Below are positions 50,239 to 59,393 of a DNA stretch of 64,000 nucleotides, in pieces (position 1 is the first letter of the stretch; the number at the start of each line of letters is the position of its first letter). The DNA is from Aquisphaera insulae (GTDB taxonomy: Bacteria; Planctomycetota; Planctomycetia; Isosphaerales; Isosphaeraceae). Where the stretch lies: the NCBI RefSeq assembly GCF_011064615.1, contig NZ_JAALJH010000009.1:62001-126000 (forward strand). Direction: 5' to 3'. The notes below the pieces were generated by a model, which saw only the letters and a list, made by a program, of their open reading frames with translations, did not search any database and had not been told where the DNA came from. Made by a program: the position numbers and the translations under genes.

Positions 50239-51387
50239 TCAGAGCCCGCCGGAGCCATTCGCAACGGGCAGATGGTAGAGCATCAGGTAGATCACGACCC
50301 CGGTCACGGAGACGTAAAGCCAGATGGGGAAAGTGACCGCGGCCGCGCGGGCGTGGGCGGCGAAACGTCCGCGGAGTGCGCGGGAGAGTGTCACGAGGAC
50401 GAGGGGAACGACGCCGAAGGTGGCGAGTAGCGTGTGGGAGAGCAGGATGGTCAGGTAGCTCCAGCGAAGGGCACCGCTGCCGGGGAACTCCACGCTGCCG
50501 GCGAAATAATGGTAAATCAGGTAGCAGGAAAGGAAGACCGCCGACGTGAGCAGGGCGACGACCATGAAGAAGACATGGCCGCGGACGGCCGGCTGCTGGA
50601 GCAATCTCGCGTCGGGAACGTCGACGGATTGGGGGGAGCCAGGTGACCGTCGGGGTCGTCGGATCAGGTTCCATCCGGTGAGGAGGAACACGGCACAGAG
50701 GCCGTTGAGGCTGGCATTGACCGCCGGAAGGGCCCTCAGCCAGGAGGGGGCGGCGAGCCTCTTCGCCCGCTTGACGAGCCTGGCGACGGCCGCCGGGTCG
50801 TTCGAGTCGAACTCGCCGATGATCCGGCCGCGGTCCACGAGGGCCAGGCGGCTGCTATGGGCGATGGTCTCGATCTTGCCGTCGGCGGTCGGCACGGGGT
50901 TGGGATCGACCATGACGCTGAGCTTGAATCGGTCCTTGATCAGCGCATAAATCTGGTCCCGAGCTCCGGTCAGGAACCACCACCGGCCGGGGTCCGCCTG
51001 ATGGCGGTTGGCGTACTCGGACAGGACGGCCGGCGTGTCGTATTCCGGATCCACGGACAGGCTGACGAGCAGCACGTCGGTCCCCGCCAGCTTCCCCTGG
51101 ACGTCCTGCATGATCGCCGTGATCTTCGGGCACTGGAGCGGGCAGCGGGTGAAGATGAAGTCGACGATCGCCACGCGATCGGCGAGATCGGCCTGCGTGA
51201 TCTCCCGGCCGGAGCGTTCCGTGAGCCGGAACGAGTCCAGGCGCTCTCCCGCTTCGCCGAGATCCTCGGCCGCCGGACGAGATGCCGGGGCAAGGCTCCC
51301 GGGCAACAGCAGGATAGCCAGTCCCGAGCAGAGGAAGGTTCCGACAACAACGACGATGCCGCGGCGGTAGAGGTTGGTGAGATTCAT
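50239..51387 (-). CDS. Sco1-type copper chaperone fused to DUF420 membrane domain
   Basis: Residues 1-215 are a Sco/SenC thioredoxin-fold domain anchored by an N-terminal helix. Its copper ligands are Cys82 and Cys86 in FTRCPLQCP and His177 in ETIAHSSR. Sco proteins insert copper into the CuA centre of cytochrome oxidase. Residues 221-382 form a DUF420-type domain with four or five helices (VNASLNGLCAVFLLTGWNLI, FFMVVALLTSAVFLSCYLIYHYF), itself usually encoded beside oxidase genes. The fusion keeps both assembly functions in one chain. The start at 51387 is preferred for topology; a further ATG at 51438 has no better binding site. It ends the cox operon. Confidence 0.92.
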   Translation of the reverse strand: MNLTNLYRRGIVVVVGTFLCSGLAILLLPGSLAPASRPAAEDLGEAGERLDSFRLTERSGREITQADLADRVAIVDFIFTRCPLQCPKITAIMQDVQGKLAGTDVLLVSLSVDPEYDTPAVLSEYANRHQADPGRWWFLTGARDQIYALIKDRFKLSVMVDPNPVPTADGKIETIAHSSRLALVDRGRIIGEFDSNDPAAVARLVKRAKRLAAPSWLRALPAVNASLNGLCAVFLLTGWNLIRRPRRSPGSPQSVDVPDARLLQQPAVRGHVFFMVVALLTSAVFLSCYLIYHYFAGSVEFPGSGALRWSYLTILLSHTLLATFGVVPLVLVTLSRALRGRFAAHARAAAVTFPIWLYVSVTGVVIYLMLYHLPVANGSGGL

Positions 51388-51454
51388 GAGGAACAGCTTA
51401 TCACAACCAGCGGGCGGGATGCAGAGCCGCAAGGGCATCCGAGCCGATCGCGTC

Positions 51455-51862
51455 TCAGGCTACGATCCGGAAGGTCCCCGGATGGTCGATGGCGGGCGCG
51501 GGGACGTTCATGGTCTCTCCCTCGTCGAGCAAGTCCTCGGCCACGGGCTTCAGGGCGACATCGGGGCAGAGCATGATCGTCAGGAAGACGGCCAGGACGC
51601 AGGCCGGGATGATCATCAGGTAGACCCACTTCTTCTCGAACTTCAGGTGCATGAAATACCAGCCGACCAGACCGGCCTTCACGAGCGCCATGCTCAGCAG
51701 GCCGAGGAGCAGCAGGGCGAAGTGGTCCTTGACGATCATCGCATAGACGTACTCGACGAAGGTGAGCACGGCCAGCGCCAGCCAGACCCTGAAGTAAGGG
51801 GCGTGCGATTCGACCTGGAGCTCATCGGCCATCTCGGGAGTCAGGCTCTGGGGATCGGCCAT
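51455..51862 (-). CDS. coxD: Cytochrome c oxidase subunit IV
   Basis: The 135-residue protein has three membrane helices (VWLALAVLTFVEYVYAMI, FALLLLGLLSMALVKAGLVGWYFMHL, WVYLMIIPACVLAVFLTIML), and the WYFMHLKFEKKW stretch is characteristic of the small prokaryotic subunit IV. It stabilises the oxidase rather than carrying cofactors. The gene begins 25 bases after coxC and ends before the Sco-DUF420 gene. Confidence 0.92.
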   Translation of the reverse strand: MADPQSLTPEMADELQVESHAPYFRVWLALAVLTFVEYVYAMIVKDHFALLLLGLLSMALVKAGLVGWYFMHLKFEKKWVYLMIIPACVLAVFLTIMLCPDVALKPVAEDLLDEGETMNVPAPAIDHPGTFRIVA

Positions 51863-51887: not shown

Positions 51888-52850
51888 TCAGACGAGATAG
51901 ACGATGGTGAACAGGATGATCCAGACGAGATCGACGAAATGCCAGTAAAGCCCGGCGTACTCGATCGTCTGGTAGTTCGTCTGGTTGTAGGCGCCCATCA
52001 GGGCCCGGATGAAGACGAGGATCAGGGTCACCACCCCGGCGGTCACGTGCAGGCCGTGGAAGCCGGTCATGGTGAAGAAGCAGGAGGCGAACAGGCTGAC
52101 CCACGGCCGGAAATGGCCGTTCGGGCTGATGCCCGGGGGGTAGTGTCGGCCGATCATCAGCTCGTAGTATTCGCTGGCCTGAACACCCAGGAAGATGCTG
52201 CCGAAGAGGATCGTCAGGCCCAGGAAGATCAGGCTCTTCTGCCGCTTCCCCTGCTGGATGGCGGAGAGCGAGAGGACCATGGTCACCGACGAGCAGATCA
52301 GGATGAAGGTGTTGATCGCGGTCAGGTTGATGCTCAGCGGGTTGGTCAGGTCGTCGTAAGGTTTGGGCCACTCGTGGGTGACGACCCCTTCGACCGTGGC
52401 CGTCACGCCGAGTCCGCCCAGGCTGGCGGCGAGCGAATCGGCCTTCGCCTTGCTCAGGTGATTGACGACCATCGGCTCGCCGGGCGCGGCCTCGGAGACG
52501 ATCTCGTGGGCCTCCTCGGCGGTGATTTCCGGGTTGGCCGCGCGGATGAGCTCGATGGCATGCTCGGGTTCGGAAGCCTTCGAGCGGAGGATCACACCGT
52601 AGGTGCCGTCGATATCCTTGAAGTTGGTGGTCGGTGCGTACAGGTTCGTGTACGAGGTCCGCGGGCTCCCCGCCCGGAGGACGATGTACGAGCCGATCAG
52701 GCCGGTGAAGAACATGATTTCCGTGGCCAGGAAGAGCCACATCGCGACCTTCCCCGGGGTCACCGGGGCGTGATGATCGTGGGAGTGCGACCTGCCCGGC
52801 GCTGGGCCGTGGGCATGCGCCGGGGTCGTGATGGAGGTTGCTTCGGCCAT
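51888..52850 (-). CDS. coxC: Cytochrome c oxidase subunit III with inserted bL12-CTD-like domain
   Basis: The 320-residue protein has the five-helix bacterial form of subunit III: KVAMWLFLATEIMFFTGLIGSYIVLRAG, NLTAINTFILICSSVTMVLSL, then three more helices ending YWHFVDLVWIILFTIVYLV. The N-terminus is His-rich (HAHGPAPGRSHSHDHH). Between the first helix and the usual WPKPYDDL segment lies an extra soluble block, residues 83-155. It starts YGVILRSKASEPEHAIELIR and runs through EEAHEIVSEA and LSKAKADSLAASL to GVTATVEG. This order resembles the C-terminal domain of ribosomal protein bL12. By subunit III topology the loop should face the periplasm. The gene follows ctaB in the cox operon. Confidence 0.93.
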   Translation of the reverse strand: MAEATSITTPAHAHGPAPGRSHSHDHHAPVTPGKVAMWLFLATEIMFFTGLIGSYIVLRAGSPRTSYTNLYAPTTNFKDIDGTYGVILRSKASEPEHAIELIRAANPEITAEEAHEIVSEAAPGEPMVVNHLSKAKADSLAASLGGLGVTATVEGVVTHEWPKPYDDLTNPLSINLTAINTFILICSSVTMVLSLSAIQQGKRQKSLIFLGLTILFGSIFLGVQASEYYELMIGRHYPPGISPNGHFRPWVSLFASCFFTMTGFHGLHVTAGVVTLILVFIRALMGAYNQTNYQTIEYAGLYWHFVDLVWIILFTIVYLV

Positions 52851-52916: not shown

Positions 52917-53846
52917 TCAGGCCGGCGAGGGGTTCAGCAGCAGGAAGAGCAGGACCAGGGGCAGATACAGGAACGACATCCGGAGCAGGCGCCTGGCGTT
53001 CGCGTCCGAGATCTCGCGGAGGAACCGGACGGCCGCGGCCAGGTAGACCAGGCTCAGGACGAGTGCCCCGACGAAGTAGAAATCGCCGGCCAGGCCGATG
53101 ATGGTCGGGAGCAGGCTCGCGGGGACCAGGGCGAGGGCGTAGAGCGTCGCCTGGCGGGCCGTGATCGTGCCGTCGGGATCGACGTTCGGCAGCATCCGCA
53201 TGCCGCCTCGGGCGTAATCCTCGCGGTAGAGCCAGGCGATCGCCAGGAAGTGGGGGAACTGCCAGAGGAAGACGATGAGGAAGAGGGCGAATGCCTCGAT
53301 GCCGATCTTGCCGGTCGCCGCCGCCCAGCCGATCGCCGGGGGCAGGGCACCCGGGATCGCGCCGATGGCCGTGTTCAGGGTCGTCCGCGGCTTGAGCGGC
53401 GTGTAGACGAGCACGTAGAGCAAGAGGGTCGTTCCGGCGACGGCCGCCGCGGGACGATTGGCCCCGGCCAGGAGGATGGCCATGCCCGCCGACCCGAGGA
53501 TGACGCCCAGGATCGAGGCCTCGAGCGGCGAGACTCGCCGCCGGGGCAGGGCGCGGTTGGCCGTCCGCCGCATCCGGGCGTCGCGGGCCCGTTCCATCCA
53601 CTGGTTCAGGCAGCTCGCGCTGGCGGCGACCAGTCCGGTTCCCAGCAGCGTGAGGAAGACCGTGCCCGGGTGCGAGCTGCCGCGGGCGCCCATCAGGAAG
53701 CCGACCAGGACCGTGATCAGGACCATGAACACGATCCGCGGCTTGGTCAGCGAGACATAAGCGCGGAGCCGGTCCGCGACCGACGTCGCCGGAGACTCGG
53801 GCGACGGGGCAAGCTCCGGATGGACGAGGGAAACCGCCGATTTCAA
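52917..53846 (-). CDS. ctaB: Haem O synthase (protoheme IX farnesyltransferase)
   Basis: CtaB adds a farnesyl group to haem B, the first step toward haem A for the oxidase. The start is TTG at 53846, with GGAGG seven bases upstream, overlapping the ctaA stop codon as TTGA. The 309-residue protein has the UbiA-type Asp-rich motifs: NQWMERARDARMRRTANRALPRR near residue 80, and the second motif around WLYREDYARGGMRMLPNVDPDG. About nine helices are predicted. It acts in the inner membrane next to CtaA. Confidence 0.94.
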   Translation of the reverse strand: MKSAVSLVHPELAPSPESPATSVADRLRAYVSLTKPRIVFMVLITVLVGFLMGARGSSHPGTVFLTLLGTGLVAASASCLNQWMERARDARMRRTANRALPRRRVSPLEASILGVILGSAGMAILLAGANRPAAAVAGTTLLLYVLVYTPLKPRTTLNTAIGAIPGALPPAIGWAAATGKIGIEAFALFLIVFLWQFPHFLAIAWLYREDYARGGMRMLPNVDPDGTITARQATLYALALVPASLLPTIIGLAGDFYFVGALVLSLVYLAAAVRFLREISDANARRLLRMSFLYLPLVLLFLLLNPSPA

Positions 53847-54862
53847 GCGAGAGCCTCCAGGTTCGCCGGCGACGGACGTTCGCCGGCCGCGGGGCGTGGA
53901 TGATCCGGGTCGGGAAGGGCCGCCGCGACGCCGAGGTGCCGGGCGGCCCGCAGCGCCAGCACCACGCTCGACGCCAGCAGCAGGGCCGCGTTGGTCTGGT
54001 GGCCGGTGCGGAAGACCGCCTCGTAGAAGGTCACGGGCTTCGGCACGCCGCCGAAGGGGAGGATGTAGAGCAGGGCAATGATCCCGAGCGCCACCTGGAA
54101 CCACGCGGCGAGGACCAGCCAGCGGGCCGGCCCCGCGAGTTCCGGCAACTCCTGTCTGGCTCGGAAGGCGACCAGGCCGACGAGCGTGGCAAGCCCCAGG
54201 GCGGCCGCGGCGATCAGGGCATGGGCGACCAGCGATTCGAGCGTCCCGTAATGGCGCAGCCAGGCCCCCGCGGCGATCTGCGCGAGCACCAGCGCGAGCA
54301 TGGCGATCGACCGGCCTCGGAGTCGCCGACGATCCTCGATCGGCTCGCGACCTTCCAGCCAGTCCCTCCCCGTGACCACGGCCATCGCGACCATCAGCCC
54401 GAAGAAGGCCTGGGCCGTGAACCCGTGGACGGCCGCCAGCAGCGTGGAAATGAGCGTGACCCTCGTCCCGCCCAGGATCCCCTGGATGATCACCACGACG
54501 AGGGCCACGATCCCCAGGACCTTGACCCACCGGCGCGAGTCGAAGAGGAAGAGGGTGACCGCCAGCCCGATGGTCGCGAGGCCCACCGCGGAGCCGTAGA
54601 GGCGGTGCGAATGCTCCAGCACGACGCCGAACGAGGCATTGACGAAGTCGTAGAGGAACATGTTCATACCGAACGTCGTCGGCCAGTCCGGCACGGCCAG
54701 CCCGACGCGGTAGGTCGTGACCGAGCCCCCCACGAAGAGGAGGGGGAGCGTGAACAGGGCGGCGAGGACGGCCAACCAGTGGGGACTCCTCCGGTAGGCC
54801 GGCCGGGCGGGCGATCGCCCCGGGATTTCGTCGTCGGGATTCGTGCTGCGGGTCGCGGGCAT
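53843..54862 (-). CDS. ctaA: Haem A synthase (COX15/CtaA family)
   Basis: CtaA oxidises the methyl group of haem O to the formyl group of haem A. The 339-residue protein has eight predicted helices. Expected His motifs are seen in LEHSHRLYGSAVG, LAAVHGFTAQAFFGL, SLVAHALIAAAALG and RTGHQTNAALLLA, and the N-terminal loop VGGSVTTYRVGLAVPDWPTT is family-typical. I take the ATG at 54862; an in-frame TTG two codons earlier is possible. It is coupled to ctaB by the TTGA overlap and follows coxA by 42 bases. Confidence 0.93.
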   Translation of the reverse strand: MPATRSTNPDDEIPGRSPARPAYRRSPHWLAVLAALFTLPLLFVGGSVTTYRVGLAVPDWPTTFGMNMFLYDFVNASFGVVLEHSHRLYGSAVGLATIGLAVTLFLFDSRRWVKVLGIVALVVVIIQGILGGTRVTLISTLLAAVHGFTAQAFFGLMVAMAVVTGRDWLEGREPIEDRRRLRGRSIAMLALVLAQIAAGAWLRHYGTLESLVAHALIAAAALGLATLVGLVAFRARQELPELAGPARWLVLAAWFQVALGIIALLYILPFGGVPKPVTFYEAVFRTGHQTNAALLLASSVVLALRAARHLGVAAALPDPDHPRPAAGERPSPANLEALA

Positions 54863-54904
54863 GGGCAATTCATCGGGGCGAGGAACGCGGCGGTCTGGTT
54901 CGGG

Positions 54905-56767
54905 TCAGGCCATCACGGGATCGAGGACGATCCCCGAGGGGAGCGGAACGGTCTGGGGCAGGTAGTCCTGCTCCTGGCCCGGGACGCTGTACTCATAGGG
55001 CGGATGGTACACCGTCGGGATCCGGGCGAAGTTGTAATGGGGAGGGGGCGAAGAGGTGCTCCACTCCAGCGTGTTGGCGTTCCAGGGGTTCACGGGCGCC
55101 TTCGGGCCGATGAACAGGCTGGAGCAGAAATTATACGCGAAAACGATCTGGGTGACACCCAGGAGGAACGCGTTGATGGTCATGAACTGGTTCATCCCGA
55201 TCACCCCGGCCCGGTTCAGGTAATCGTAGACGAGCGGGTCGGCGATCCGCCGGGGGTGGCCGTGCATCCCGATGATGTGCATCAGGAAGAAGGTCCCGTT
55301 GAAGAAGATGAACGTCAGGAAGAAATGGATCATCCCCAGCCGCTCGTTCATCATCCGCCCGAACATCTTGGGGAACCAGTAGTAGATGGCGGCGAAGATC
55401 CCGAACGTGCTGCCGCCGAAGAGCACGTAGTGGATGTGGCCGACGATGAAGTAGGTGTCATGGATGAGGATGTCCACGGGCGTGGCCGCCATGAAGATGC
55501 CCGAGAGCCCGCCGATGATGAACATCGCCACGAAGGCCATGGCGTTGAGCATGGCCGAGGTGTACTGGATCCGGCCGCCCCACATCGTCCCCAGCCAGTT
55601 GAAGACCTTGATGGCCGAGGGGAGGGCGATCATCATCGTCGACAGCATGAACGTCGCGCCGAGTGCGGGGTTCATGCCCGACTGGAACATGTGATGGCCC
55701 CAGACGATGAAGCCGAGCCCGGCGATCCCGGCGATGGCGATCACCATCGGCTTGTAGCCGAAGAGCGGCTTCCGCGAGAACGTCGCGATGATGTCCGAGA
55801 CCATGCCCATGGCCGGCAGGATCATGATGTAGACCGCCGGGTGCGAGTAGAACCAGAAGAGGTGCTGGAAGAGCAGGGGGCCGCCGCCGCCGACCACCGG
55901 GGGGGAGTTGGCCACGGTCCAGGCGACCGGGCTGAAGAAGTTGGTCCCGGCCACCCGATCCAGGGTCTGCATGATCAGGGCCGAGGTCAGGACCGGCAGG
56001 GCGAACGCCTGGAGCAGGGCCGTGATGAACATCGCCCAGACCGTCATCGGCATCCGGAACATCCGCATCCCGGGGGCCCGCAGCATGACGATCGTCGTGA
56101 TGTAGTTGATCGAGCCCATCAGCGACGAGATCCCGGCGAACAGGAGCGCCATCAGCCAGAAGGTCTGGCCGTTGAGCGAGCCGGGGGTGGCCCATTTCGC
56201 GATCGAGAGGATCGGATAGCTCGTCCAGCCCGCCTCGGCCGATCCCCCCTCCACGAAGAACGAGTAGGTGATCAGGACGAACGCCGGCCACATGAACCAG
56301 TACGAGAACATGTTCAGCTTCGGGAACGCCATGTCCCGGGCGCCGATCATGAGCGGGATCAGGAAATTGCCGAAGGCCCCGGTGAGCAGCGGGATGATCA
56401 CGAAGAAGATCATGATCGTCGCGTGCATCGTGAAGAGCTTGTTGTAGAACTCCGGCGGCATGTGGTAGCCGAGGTTCGGGTCCGACCAGAGCAGGCGACC
56501 GAGGATGGGCATCGGCTTCCAGGGCCAGGCGAGCTGCCAGCGGACGGCCATCGCCAGCAGGCCCCCCAGGACGAAGAAGATCAGCCCCGAGAACAGGAAC
56601 TGGATGCCGATGACCTTGTGGTCCTGCGAGAAGACGTACTTCGTCAGGACGTTCGAAGGCGCCGGGTGGATGTGGTCGTGGCCGTGCCCGTCTCCATGAT
56701 CGTGGCCGTGGGAGGAAACCTGGGGCGTCGGGCCGCCGGGATCCTTGCCGATCGCTTCGGAGCTCAT
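54905..56767 (-). CDS. coxA: Cytochrome c oxidase subunit I, A2 type
   Basis: The 620-residue catalytic subunit reduces oxygen to water and pumps protons. Haem and CuB ligands are all present: His115 (FTMHATIM), His309 (FYSHPAVY), His358-359 (WGHHMF), His444 and His446 (VGHIHYVL). Tyr313 is placed for the His-Tyr crosslink. The helix VI motif is YSHPAVY, lacking the Glu of A1 enzymes (GHPEVY), which marks the A2 type with the Tyr-Ser pair as proton route. The N-terminus has a His-rich run (SSHGHDHGDGHGHDHIH). The gene starts four bases after the coxB stop codon. Confidence 0.97.
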   Translation of the reverse strand: MSSEAIGKDPGGPTPQVSSHGHDHGDGHGHDHIHPAPSNVLTKYVFSQDHKVIGIQFLFSGLIFFVLGGLLAMAVRWQLAWPWKPMPILGRLLWSDPNLGYHMPPEFYNKLFTMHATIMIFFVIIPLLTGAFGNFLIPLMIGARDMAFPKLNMFSYWFMWPAFVLITYSFFVEGGSAEAGWTSYPILSIAKWATPGSLNGQTFWLMALLFAGISSLMGSINYITTIVMLRAPGMRMFRMPMTVWAMFITALLQAFALPVLTSALIMQTLDRVAGTNFFSPVAWTVANSPPVVGGGGPLLFQHLFWFYSHPAVYIMILPAMGMVSDIIATFSRKPLFGYKPMVIAIAGIAGLGFIVWGHHMFQSGMNPALGATFMLSTMMIALPSAIKVFNWLGTMWGGRIQYTSAMLNAMAFVAMFIIGGLSGIFMAATPVDILIHDTYFIVGHIHYVLFGGSTFGIFAAIYYWFPKMFGRMMNERLGMIHFFLTFIFFNGTFFLMHIIGMHGHPRRIADPLVYDYLNRAGVIGMNQFMTINAFLLGVTQIVFAYNFCSSLFIGPKAPVNPWNANTLEWSTSSPPPHYNFARIPTVYHPPYEYSVPGQEQDYLPQTVPLPSGIVLDPVMA

Positions 56768-56771
56768 CCGC

Positions 56772-57596
56772 TTACCTCCCCTGGTTGTCCGTGGCCATCG
56801 AGAGCTGGGATCGGTTCTGCTCGGCGAGCATCTCAGCCTGCCACCTGGCGAATTCGTCGTCGGTCGCGTGGACCGTCACGTTGCCGCGCATCTTGTAGTG
56901 CCCCCAGCCGCAGAGCTCCGCGCAGACGAGCTCGAACTTGCCGGCGGTGTCGCTGTCGAACCAGACCGGGATGGTCAGCCCGGGGACGGCGTCCTGCTTC
57001 ACCCGCATCTGGGGCAGGAAGAACGAGTGGATCACGTCCGTCGACTTGAGGTTGATGAGCGTCTGGCGATCCTTCACGAAATGGAGGTCGTTCACCGTGA
57101 ACAGGTCATCCGCCGTGTAGAGCTTCCGGTCGGGGCCGGGATACCGCATCATCCACTGGAACTGGCGGGCCGTGATCTCCGCCGTGGCCGGGACCCTGGG
57201 CGCCGCGCTGCGGAACTTGATGCTGGCCCAGGTCCCCATCTGGTACAGGGCGATGAAGACGAGGATGGCCGCCGGGATGATCGTCCAGATGACCTCGAGC
57301 CGCTGGCTGCCGTGGAAGTATCGGGACTGGCGGACGGGCTTGCCGTCGGCGTCGAGCCGGTCGGCGAATCGGTGGGCCTCCCACACCAGGACGACCTGGG
57401 TCCCGATGAAGACGATGCCCGTGATCGCCAGGATGATCACGAAGAGGCTGTCGATCTCCCGCCCGAAGGTGGAGACGCTGTGGTGCATGTCGCCGGCGGT
57501 GTTGGGCAGCCACCAGTCGGGGGAAAGCGGGGCGTAGAGGAAGGCCCCCACGGAGAAGATCGCCGCGAGGGCGAACAGGACGCTCCAGTTACGCAC
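56772..57596 (-). CDS. coxB: Cytochrome c oxidase subunit II
   Basis: Subunit II takes electrons from cytochrome c through a dinuclear CuA centre. The 274-residue protein has two membrane helices (FVIILAITGIVFIGTQVVL and VIWTIIPAAILVFIALYQM) and a periplasmic cupredoxin domain. All CuA ligands are seen: His190, Cys225, Glu227, Cys229, His233 and Met236 in CAELCGWGHYKM. It lacks a fused cytochrome c domain, so the upstream dihaem lipoprotein may be its electron donor. The start is GTG with GGGGAG eight bases upstream. Confidence 0.97.
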   Translation of the reverse strand: MRNWSVLFALAAIFSVGAFLYAPLSPDWWLPNTAGDMHHSVSTFGREIDSLFVIILAITGIVFIGTQVVLVWEAHRFADRLDADGKPVRQSRYFHGSQRLEVIWTIIPAAILVFIALYQMGTWASIKFRSAAPRVPATAEITARQFQWMMRYPGPDRKLYTADDLFTVNDLHFVKDRQTLINLKSTDVIHSFFLPQMRVKQDAVPGLTIPVWFDSDTAGKFELVCAELCGWGHYKMRGNVTVHATDDEFARWQAEMLAEQNRSQLSMATDNQGR

Positions 57597-57675: not shown

Positions 57676-58971
57676 TCAACGCGTGGCCACGGCTGAGGTC
57701 CCGGTCCCCGAATGGCCGGTCGACTCCTCGAGCAGCTCGGGCTCGAACGGCAGGGCCAGGACGAAGTTCACGAGGTCCCACACCTTCTTCTCATCGATGG
57801 TCGGGTAGTGGGCCGGCATCTGGGCCCCGGTGATCCCCTTGGCGATTCGCCAGTAGATGTCGATCGGCCGCCGGCCCCCCTTGTAGACGGTGTCCTTGCC
57901 CCGGTTCAGGTTCGCCGGGCGGAGGGGGTTGCCCCAGTCGTCCAGCTTCTGGCCCCAGAGGTCCTTCATCTCCGCCGGGAGGGCGTCGATCCGCTGCTGA
58001 CGCTCGCTCGGGTTGCCGCCGAAGACGACCTGGTTGAAGACGACCTGGGGGACGAAGCTTTTGCCATCGCCCCGGGCCTTCAGGCCGTGGCAACCGGAGC
58101 ACTCGAGCTTCTCCATCGTCTTCCCCAGGAAGAGCTCGCGACCGCGGAGGATGCTCTCGCGGGTGGCCTCGGTCCGCGGGATCGTCGGGTTGACGACCTT
58201 GGCCTGGTCGGCTTTCCAGCGGTTGATCACGGCGTCGGAGATCTCCTTCGCCGACTCGGAGGAGAGGGCGTTGATGTCGGTCTCGTCGGAGATCGCCCCC
58301 TCGTCGATGAGCGCAAGCTCCGTCTCGCCCCGGATGGACAGGAAGATCACGTAGTCGACGACCTGTTCGATCTCGAAGTCGGAGAGCAGCGCCTCGAACG
58401 CCGGCATGGACGTGCCGTGGAGTCCGTTGCGGACGGTCCGCTTCAGGTCCTCGCGGGCAGGCCGCGCCCCGTTGGGCGTCGAGGTGAACTTGAACAGCCC
58501 CCGCCGATAGTCACGCGGGTATGGATACAGGAAAGGGGCCGTCGGACCGTCCCCCGCGCCCGAGACGCCGTGGCAGTGCAGGCACTGGCGGCGATAGATC
58601 CCGTATCCGCCCGGGTAGGGCGTCGGCTTGCCGGAGGTCGAATCAAGGATTGCAGACCTCTTGACCGCACCGTCGATCATCTGGTAGTTCGCCAGGAAGG
58701 CCCCGCCGGTCATCAGCAGGTCCCCCATCGATTCCGGCACGCGGATCTGCTGAGGGCTGTCCCCGTAGAGGGTCGCAAGGTCCTTGCGCACCTTGTCCTG
58801 CAACCTCGGCTTGCCGAAGAGGCTGGACTTGCCGCCTTTCATCTCCTTCGTGAGGGCGTCATTCTCCACGTACTGGAGCGGGCCGGCGAGGAAACGATCG
58901 GAGCAGCCCGAGGCGACCGTGAACAGGAGGCAGAGGCCGATGACTCGATGGGGTCGACTCCGCAAGGTCAC
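57676..58971 (-). CDS. Dihaem cytochrome c lipoprotein
   Basis: The 431-residue protein begins at GTG 58971 (GGGAGG eight bases upstream) with a lipoprotein signal VIGLCLLFTVASGC. It has two c-type haem sites, CLHCH near residue 120 and CSGCH near 298. Candidate axial Met residues lie in GTSMPAFEALLSDFE and GAQMPAHYPTID. As the first gene of the cox operon it likely passes electrons to CoxB, or to it from an upstream quinol-oxidising complex not seen here. The two cytochrome domains are separated by a helical linker of about 100 residues. Confidence 0.92.
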   Translation of the reverse strand: MTLRSRPHRVIGLCLLFTVASGCSDRFLAGPLQYVENDALTKEMKGGKSSLFGKPRLQDKVRKDLATLYGDSPQQIRVPESMGDLLMTGGAFLANYQMIDGAVKRSAILDSTSGKPTPYPGGYGIYRRQCLHCHGVSGAGDGPTAPFLYPYPRDYRRGLFKFTSTPNGARPAREDLKRTVRNGLHGTSMPAFEALLSDFEIEQVVDYVIFLSIRGETELALIDEGAISDETDINALSSESAKEISDAVINRWKADQAKVVNPTIPRTEATRESILRGRELFLGKTMEKLECSGCHGLKARGDGKSFVPQVVFNQVVFGGNPSERQQRIDALPAEMKDLWGQKLDDWGNPLRPANLNRGKDTVYKGGRRPIDIYWRIAKGITGAQMPAHYPTIDEKKVWDLVNFVLALPFEPELLEESTGHSGTGTSAVATR

Positions 58972-59393
58972 GCGATCATCCTCCCCTCGGCGGGTCGAAG
59001 GCGACTGTCTGCGACCCGTCGGATCCGACAAGAGCGGAATTAGGCCGGGAATCCGGCCTCGCACGTAGCACCTGAAACGAGCAGATTCAAACCTCGAGAC
59101 GCACCTCGCGCGTCCCGCCAGGCCGCCCTCTTCGATGCCGGCCGCCGGGACGCAAGTCCTTGGCGACCAATGAGCGGGGTATTCTGACGACCGGCATTCA
59201 ACGCCGTCAAGGCGCGGACGACCCATTACCGGGAAGATATCCTAGTCATCTTCTACGAAGCCTACAAGACACCCGAAGATTTCGCGGAATTCGCCGAGAA
59301 TGAAATTTATGACGGGGCTGAAATCGATCGATAGAGAGGAAGACTCCAGTCCCGTTCCCGACCGCCCGATCGCATACCAATGTGCGAAATCCC
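58972..59393. other. Promoter region of the cytochrome oxidase operon
   Basis: The 422 bases between the cytochrome c gene and the divergent CPBP protease gene contain the candidate promoter at 59181-59210 and no supported gene. Confidence 0.45.
59181..59210 (-). promoter_or_regulatory. Candidate sigma-70 promoter of the cox operon
   Basis: TTGACG (59210-59205) and CAGAAT (59186-59181) are 18 bases apart on the minus strand. The start near 59174 would give a leader of about 200 bases before the cytochrome c gene. Confidence 0.4.

Follow-up and report, generated by a model that had tools for sequence, protein, structure and literature searches.

RESULTS

The window (the whole 64,000-nucleotide stretch of Aquisphaera insulae DNA analyzed here) contains a cytochrome oxidase operon in which coxB, coxA, ctaA, ctaB, coxD, and sco are arranged around coxC (Table 1). 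The coxC frame begins with ATG and is unbroken, and residues 161-319 of its product are matched by the COX3 profile PF00510 in a Pfam scan (E 9.5e-23). Approximately 74 extra residues stand between the first helix of CoxC and its WPKPYD segment, with CoxC sequence on both sides; a sequence-only reading of this DNA had proposed a domain interrupting CoxC at just this point, which is borne out, albeit with residue 156 rather than 155 as its end. A full-length model of the protein (pLDDT 79.1; built from 41 sequences, two of them with the insert) consists of five helices, the domain lying between helices 1 and 2, and a fold search with this model returned oxidase chains in rows 1 to 43 and L7/L12 at row 44.

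Table 1. Oxidase operon genes in the window and parts of the CoxC protein, in the direction of transcription
Feature	Position	Strand	Basis and remarks
Two-heme cytochrome c, first gene of the conserved operon, possible electron donor	57676..59226	-	PF13442, PF00034; start provisional
coxB, subunit II without fused cytochrome c domain	56772..57596	-	profile scan
coxA, subunit I	54905..56767	-	PF00115
ctaA-type heme A synthase	53843..54868	-	PF02628
ctaB-type heme O synthase	52917..53840	-	PF01040; start codon provisional
coxC, five-helix cytochrome c oxidase subunit III with inserted domain	51888..52850	-	320 aa; PF00510; helix model; COX3 folds
CoxC first transmembrane helix, residues 32-61	52668..52757	-	model
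Inserted bL12-C-terminal-domain-like domain, residues 83-156	52383..52604	-	profiles, predicted fold, absence in 14/44 orthologues
CoxC transmembrane helices 2-5, residues 174-319	51894..52331	-	model; COX3 match 161-319
coxD, prokaryotic subunit IV	51455..51862	-	PF03626
Sco protein fused to DUF420 membrane domain in one frame	50239..51438	-	PF02630, PF04238

The window CoxC shares its five helices and a conserved C-terminal half with five-helix subunit III elsewhere (PF00510; CtaE, CyoC, and QoxC type). It differs in carrying a folded domain at the site of a loop that, in the best 80 of 587 CoxC loci from the genome collection, measures 4 to 19 residues in 77 cases and 49 residues in two Bacteroidetes. 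By eye, the 49-residue loops of the latter (L058 and L059), which likewise lie between helix 1 and helix 2, are unrelated to the L12 insert; this loop therefore takes insertions elsewhere too. The domain is absent from 79 of the same 80 loci, and the single carrier, Paludisphaera soli (L032), belongs to the Isosphaeraceae within the Planctomycetia (NCBI). Thus, the domain is not a general feature of CoxC proteins, and alignment with CoxC of other planctomycetes found it in 30 of the 44 Isosphaeraceae genomes that have this coxC (fragments on short contigs counted; presence or absence assigned by eye from the alignment; G002, without this orthologue, falls outside the 44). In the 14 insert-free orthologues, a short loop joins helix 1 and WPKPYD. 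Misassembly as the source of the insert is ruled out by its occurrence at 30 of 44 orthologous loci. Its length ranges from 69 to 107 residues in 28 CoxC sequences (counted over window residues 82-156). Outside the Isosphaeraceae, no insert was seen among the matches listed for 397 Planctomycetia genomes, 392 genomes drawn from the phylum, or the best 80 of 587 CoxC loci; in the phylum sample, searched at E 1e-13, CoxC inserts were listed only for G000 (the window's genome) and G021, both Isosphaeraceae.

Some inserts carry additions of their own. In L112 and L028/L128 (G037 and G038, of one genus), there is an extra charged stretch of ca. 35 residues between the first two helices of the insert, and L017, L019, L022, and L122 (genus g20) have an extra VVLVDS-type stretch before strand 2. 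The inserts of genus g20 are among the most acidic, with net charges of -11 to -12.

On a quick tree of coxA, coxB, ctaB, and sco from the 44 genomes, rooted on G011 by our own choice, the distribution of the insert needs 3 changes, against a mean of 12.0 for shuffled distributions (none of 500 was as low); five rows of the alignment have fewer than half of the columns filled, G005, G011, and G014 have long branches, and the starred branches force only one change. Most simply, there was one early gain in the Isosphaeraceae, followed by two losses.

Within the fetched stretches, gene order around the coxC orthologue is alike in Isosphaeraceae with and without the insert, two genomes being split over contigs; the fetched stretch of G011 shows neither coxD nor sco near the gene, and that of G040 shows no sco. 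The window's genome encodes a second oxidase (L254, G000:C2:36000-54000) beside alternative complex III genes, in a stretch that comprises ActB-like, NrfD, Sco, a CoxB with fused cytochrome c (caa3 type), CoxA, and CoxC, with ActD also present; this neighborhood was checked in the window's genome only. The second CoxC has 233 residues and lacks the inserted domain. In the 21 genomes for which both match pieces of the second CoxC were listed (the others having one piece or none), these either overlap or are separated by 45 bases or fewer, a gap that could not accommodate the domain. Because these second copies have no room for it, the insert looks specific to one CoxC paralogue. Presence of alternative complex III was considered as an explanation and rejected, since ActD occurs in 41 of 45 genomes, both with and without the insert, and since the oxidase adjoining alternative complex III has its own insert-free CoxC. 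Nor does a bc-type cytochrome b (PF13631) discriminate, being present in 44 of 45.

Taken alone, the window copy of the insert resembles bL12 only faintly. PF00542 scores it at 13.6 bits (E 0.085; positions 3 to 66 of a 67-position profile) or, in a second scan, at 14.4 bits, below the curated cut-off of 25.9 bits. The same profile found no match in the whole window CoxC protein, and in a search of 45 family genomes the window insert was not among the matches listed for its own genome, even at E 10. A phmmer search of the PDB with this insert likewise gave no relative, the sole row (E 2.4) being a designed protein. The window copy is thus too weak by itself, and its relatives are needed to prove kinship with bL12.

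These relatives are more informative. The PF00542 cut-off is reached by 7 of the 30 orthologous inserts, namely those of G012 (46.5 bits, E 1.7e-11), G013 (31.8 bits), G021 (30.0 bits), G008 (28.0 bits), and G027 (25.9 bits), together with those of G022 and G040, which pass only in combination with neighbors in the frame. In all, 22 of the 30 are among the matches listed, 15 of them under the cut-off, and 8 (the window's included) are not listed. When inserts were scanned singly, 19 of 25 matched PF00542 at an E value of 1 or less, the best at 2e-12. In the reverse direction, a profile of 25 inserts searched against the 397 Planctomycetia genomes listed 28 CoxC inserts first and bL12-sized frames thereafter, with a match at an E value of 0.01 or less in 375 of the 397 genomes and a best bL12-like frame at 3.5e-16; the later rows were called bL12 by frame length (plus coordinates for family members), not every row being inspected. 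Direct comparison of the inserts with 27 bL12 C-terminal domains (of 30 fetched loci) by hhalign gave 98.2% and an E value of 3.2e-14 over 65 columns, and the two-way profile matches cover the whole domain almost without gaps. Against an HMM of the same 27 Isosphaeraceae domains, the window insert scored 14.0 bits, compared with 10.1 bits for the best of 1,400 shuffled inserts, and 24 of the 28 real inserts outscored every shuffle. The insert alignment (A1) comprised 25 of 28 sequences, leaving out L022 (a near copy of L019) and the two long inserts, L028 and L112; the hhalign and column comparisons also used 25 of 28, without L024, L028, and L112 on account of length, and the shuffle test used all 28. 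Fragments or repeats of the same gene (L027 and L125 to L128) had been dropped from the set. Twenty-three of the 24 other inserts in A1 are merely 20 to 35% identical to that of the window, and the L12 features are kept in inserts across 13 genera.

An AlphaFold2 model of the window insert, for which two CoxC sequences and no L12 served as input, reached a pLDDT of 82.7 (62.6 to 82.7 across five models) and a pTM of 0.71, with the predicted order strand-helix-helix-strand-helix-strand (beta-alpha-alpha-beta-alpha-beta). The best Foldseek match to this model in the PDB, and the only one at an E value of 0.001, was the Mycobacterium tuberculosis L7/L12 of entry 8yeq (E 5.5e-4; TM 0.77 by target length). 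By title, the best 50 of 666 matches at E 10 are mostly L7/L12 or ClpS; they include six chains of ribosome entries whose titles are silent on the protein and two chains of 4o2x (“malarial protein”), which we take to be the ClpS of AhYoung 2016 as it is cited in PMC12419801.

Given that ClpS has the same fold, the ClpS profile (PF02617; cut-off, 23 bits) was run separately. The best insert match listed scored 11.6 bits (E 1.84), and when the inserts were scanned singly, 1 of 25 matched, at E 0.11. The ClpS adaptor therefore has its fold in common with the insert and almost no support from sequence, and as a nearer relative it is ruled out on that ground, alike though the folds are. In terms of sequence, the insert is best placed with L12 and not with ClpS.

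We conclude that the insert and the C-terminal domain of ribosomal protein bL12 are homologous; they have in common the fold, the order of elements, the core residues, and the conserved glycines at bL12 positions 62 and 114. The resemblance that the sequence-only reading had noticed by eye is thereby confirmed through orthologue matches to PF00542, two-way profiles, and shuffles; the L12-family profile recognizes inserts on their own, and structure prediction with a fold search gave a bL12/ClpS-type fold whose best match is L7/L12. That reading had also allowed for convergence, in which a small alpha/beta insert merely comes to resemble bL12. Such an account could draw on the sub-cut-off scores of the window copy (13.6 and 14.4 bits) and its lack of a listing in its own genome, on the missing PDB sequence match, and on the existence of the same fold in ClpS. 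Set against these are profile matches in both directions (the G012 insert with PF00542 and, in reverse, the best bL12-like frame), the hhalign E value, the clear sequence preference for L12 over ClpS, and the 1,400 shuffles, which gave no sign of a composition artifact. We regard convergence as very improbable, and as ruled out by the two-way profile evidence.

The insert is unlike bL12 in its setting, a loop of a membrane protein, and in having no bL12 N-terminal domain beside it. A working bL12 has an N-terminal dimerization domain and a hinge before its C-terminal domain; neither precedes the window insert, and the genome has its own bL12 elsewhere (G000:C223, the sole PF00542 match at E 0.001). 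The inserts keep the hydrophobic core of bL12: its residue class is found in 385 of 400 cells at 16 core positions. We also compared eight bL12 positions (among them K65, K70, R73, and K84) that presumably make up the translation factor-binding surface, and here 63 of 200 cells retain the class and 20 of 200 are identical to bL12: K65 and K70 are each kept in 0 of 25 inserts, K84 in 3, and R73 in 9. Since the core positions were picked after the alignment had been seen, the contrast between core and surface is descriptive. It nonetheless suggests that the L12 scaffold has been kept and that the presumed factor-binding positions mostly have not; the domain appears to retain its shape without its role in translation. 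Two residues set the inserts apart from bL12. All 25 inserts begin strand 1 with a glycine, in place of the D of all 27 bL12 domains, and 18 of the 25 have a histidine ahead of strand 2, at a position occupied by K in every one of the 27; the window copy lacks this histidine. The inserts are net acidic in all 30 cases (mean charge, -5.2, versus +0.4 for the bL12 C-terminal domain).

Insert dN/dS values lie between 0.15 and 0.83, so that none of the 13 genome pairs compared (partly overlapping in the genomes used) reaches 1, a sign of constraint. Those of the CoxC core run from 0.04 to 0.24, one such estimate resting on 9 codons only, and in 13 of 13 pairs the insert exceeds the core. The insert also changes faster in every pair at the protein level, being 46 to 94% identical where the core is 82 to 97% identical.

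In subunit III of known topology, the N terminus is inside and the loop between helices 1 and 2 is outside. Charges in the other loops of this CoxC are in keeping with such an arrangement: across 44 genomes, the helix 2-helix 3 loop has a mean of 2.4 K+R in ca. 8 residues, as expected of an inner loop, and the outer helix 3-helix 4 loop has 1.1 in ca. 22. The helix 4-helix 5 loop, expected to be inside, has 1.2 in ca. 13 and adds little. Homology and loop charges together indicate that the loop carrying the insert is very probably periplasmic. Were it cytoplasmic, the domain might recruit translation factors to the membrane as the ribosomal stalk does; L12 domains recruit GTPase factors, and the insert is a domain of this kind. 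This we consider scarcely credible, both because the presumed factor-binding positions are mostly lost and because the known topology of subunit III and the positive helix 2-helix 3 loop place the insert outside.

Co-variation of the insert with its possible partners was assessed in 22 genomes by five tests on distance residuals, with uncorrected P values. The lowest P value was obtained with the CoxC core (r = 0.22, P = 0.007). A weak association was seen with the two-heme cytochrome (r = 0.27, P = 0.017) and a marginal one with CoxB (r = 0.22, P = 0.052), and there was none with CoxD (r = 0.02, P = 0.41) or CoxA (r = 0.13, P = 0.15). The two-heme cytochromes are acidic as well (mean net charge, -7.2; n = 32, against n = 30 for the inserts), and their charge does not correlate with that of the insert (rho = 0.27, P = 0.22, n = 23). 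That both are acidic and their charges uncorrelated speaks against simple electrostatic docking of the two-heme cytochrome on the insert, a candidate for which the charge test thus provides no support.

No indel in CoxA, CoxB, CtaA, CtaB, CoxD, or Sco tracks the insert. A single alignment column does so in each of CoxA, CoxB, and Sco (more than 80% versus less than 10%), a pattern that shared ancestry alone could give. In the two-heme cytochrome, the stretch from the second heme motif to KGGRRP is 97 to 283 residues long in 8 of 9 insert-free genomes (69 in G010) and 67 to 72 residues long in 22 of 23 insert-bearing ones (97 in G008); these amount to 1 or 2 independent pairs.

DISCUSSION

In the current study, we found that a subunit III of cytochrome c oxidase carries a bL12-type domain in the loop between its first two helices. 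The reading that we favor combines this identity with a periplasmic position and a contact function, and we put the combination at roughly 40%. Most simply, a single early event in the Isosphaeraceae would have placed a bL12-type domain between helices 1 and 2 of one CoxC paralogue, and some lines would later have lost it. Its host is an aa3-type oxidase whose operon starts with a separate two-heme cytochrome c. Placed on subunit III, through which other bacterial oxidases contact complex III or alternative complex III, the domain would hold a periplasmic partner, the likeliest candidates lying on the electron-donor side: the two-heme cytochrome c or the complex feeding it. The L12 scaffold would have been retained for this purpose and most of the translation factor-binding surface replaced. 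As an account of function, an accessory protein-contact module of this oxidase is a tentative suggestion, drawn in part by analogy with other bacterial oxidases. According to a review (PMC8361435), alternative complex III of F. johnsoniae contacts its oxidase via a subunit III with five helices; the review adds that different partners may be accommodated through variation in subunit III. Given that subunit III is the contact subunit in that system, an extra domain there would fit a contact role.

The sequence-only reading had gone further and placed the insert near the site at which cytochrome c docks. Here, the evidence is divided: the weak co-variation with the two-heme cytochrome is in its favor, but the charge test is not. 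A bolder, and in our judgment rather unlikely, extension would make the L12 scaffold a partner-recruiting arm outside the membrane, one that catches electron carriers as it catches elongation factors on the ribosome.

Two other accounts of the domain need no outside partner. It may be an element of assembly or stability that aids the folding or insertion of CoxC or its association with subunit I, or that shields the lipid cleft. That the lowest P value in the co-variation tests belongs to the CoxC core would suit such a role, as would the insert-specific glycine and histidine, which could face the rest of CoxC. We nevertheless think it somewhat unlikely, because 14 of the 44 orthologues manage without the domain in the same operon setting and because the window copy itself does without the histidine. 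More generally, the insert has most simply been lost twice without loss of the oxidase and is therefore not essential in those lines. Those losses can also be read, along with the high substitution rate (dN/dS of up to 0.83) and the lack of any partner indel that tracks the insert, as signs of a tolerated passenger. On this account, a copy of the bL12 tail landed in a permissive loop and, with no role of its own, persists solely because its disruption would cause the protein to misfold. Yet since short, domain-free loops are viable, loss of a passenger should have been easy, and the L12 features have instead been retained across 13 genera despite the low identity to the window's copy in 23 of 24 inserts. 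We would give this account, too, a minority share of the probability. The contact module remains our working suggestion for the oxidase, on the understanding that it is itself a cautious one.

Searching the literature by title or abstract, we found no earlier report of an L12-type domain inserted in an oxidase subunit III; subscription papers and database annotation pages lay outside this search, so that some CoxC records may bear an automatic domain label. The nearest report (PMC12419801) describes one-helix membrane proteins, encoded beside Skillet-2 lipocone genes, that contain a ClpS-ribosomal L7/L12 domain. They resemble CoxC as membrane proteins that bear an L12/ClpS-type domain away from the ribosome; they differ in that the domain is described as cytoplasmic and fused to an HTH domain, whereas the CoxC insert occupies an oxidase loop predicted to be periplasmic. 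In CoxC, an L12-type domain thus stands in a predicted extracytoplasmic place, for which the literature searched yielded no precedent. Although subunit III is part of the conserved core of heme-copper oxidases, its outer loop carries a folded, ribosome-type domain in much of this one family. Relatives that share the operon but differ in whether they have the domain amount to a natural experiment, which makes it directly testable what the outer face of subunit III does in bacterial supercomplexes.

L12-like pieces have also been put to other uses in the Isosphaeraceae. Four frames, L250, L251, L248, and L249 (from G031, G030, G040, and G041, respectively), have a zinc-ribbon-like start followed by two short half-L12 repeats (of the IEAIKVYREATGVGLKEAKDAVE type) and then a hydrophobic stretch.
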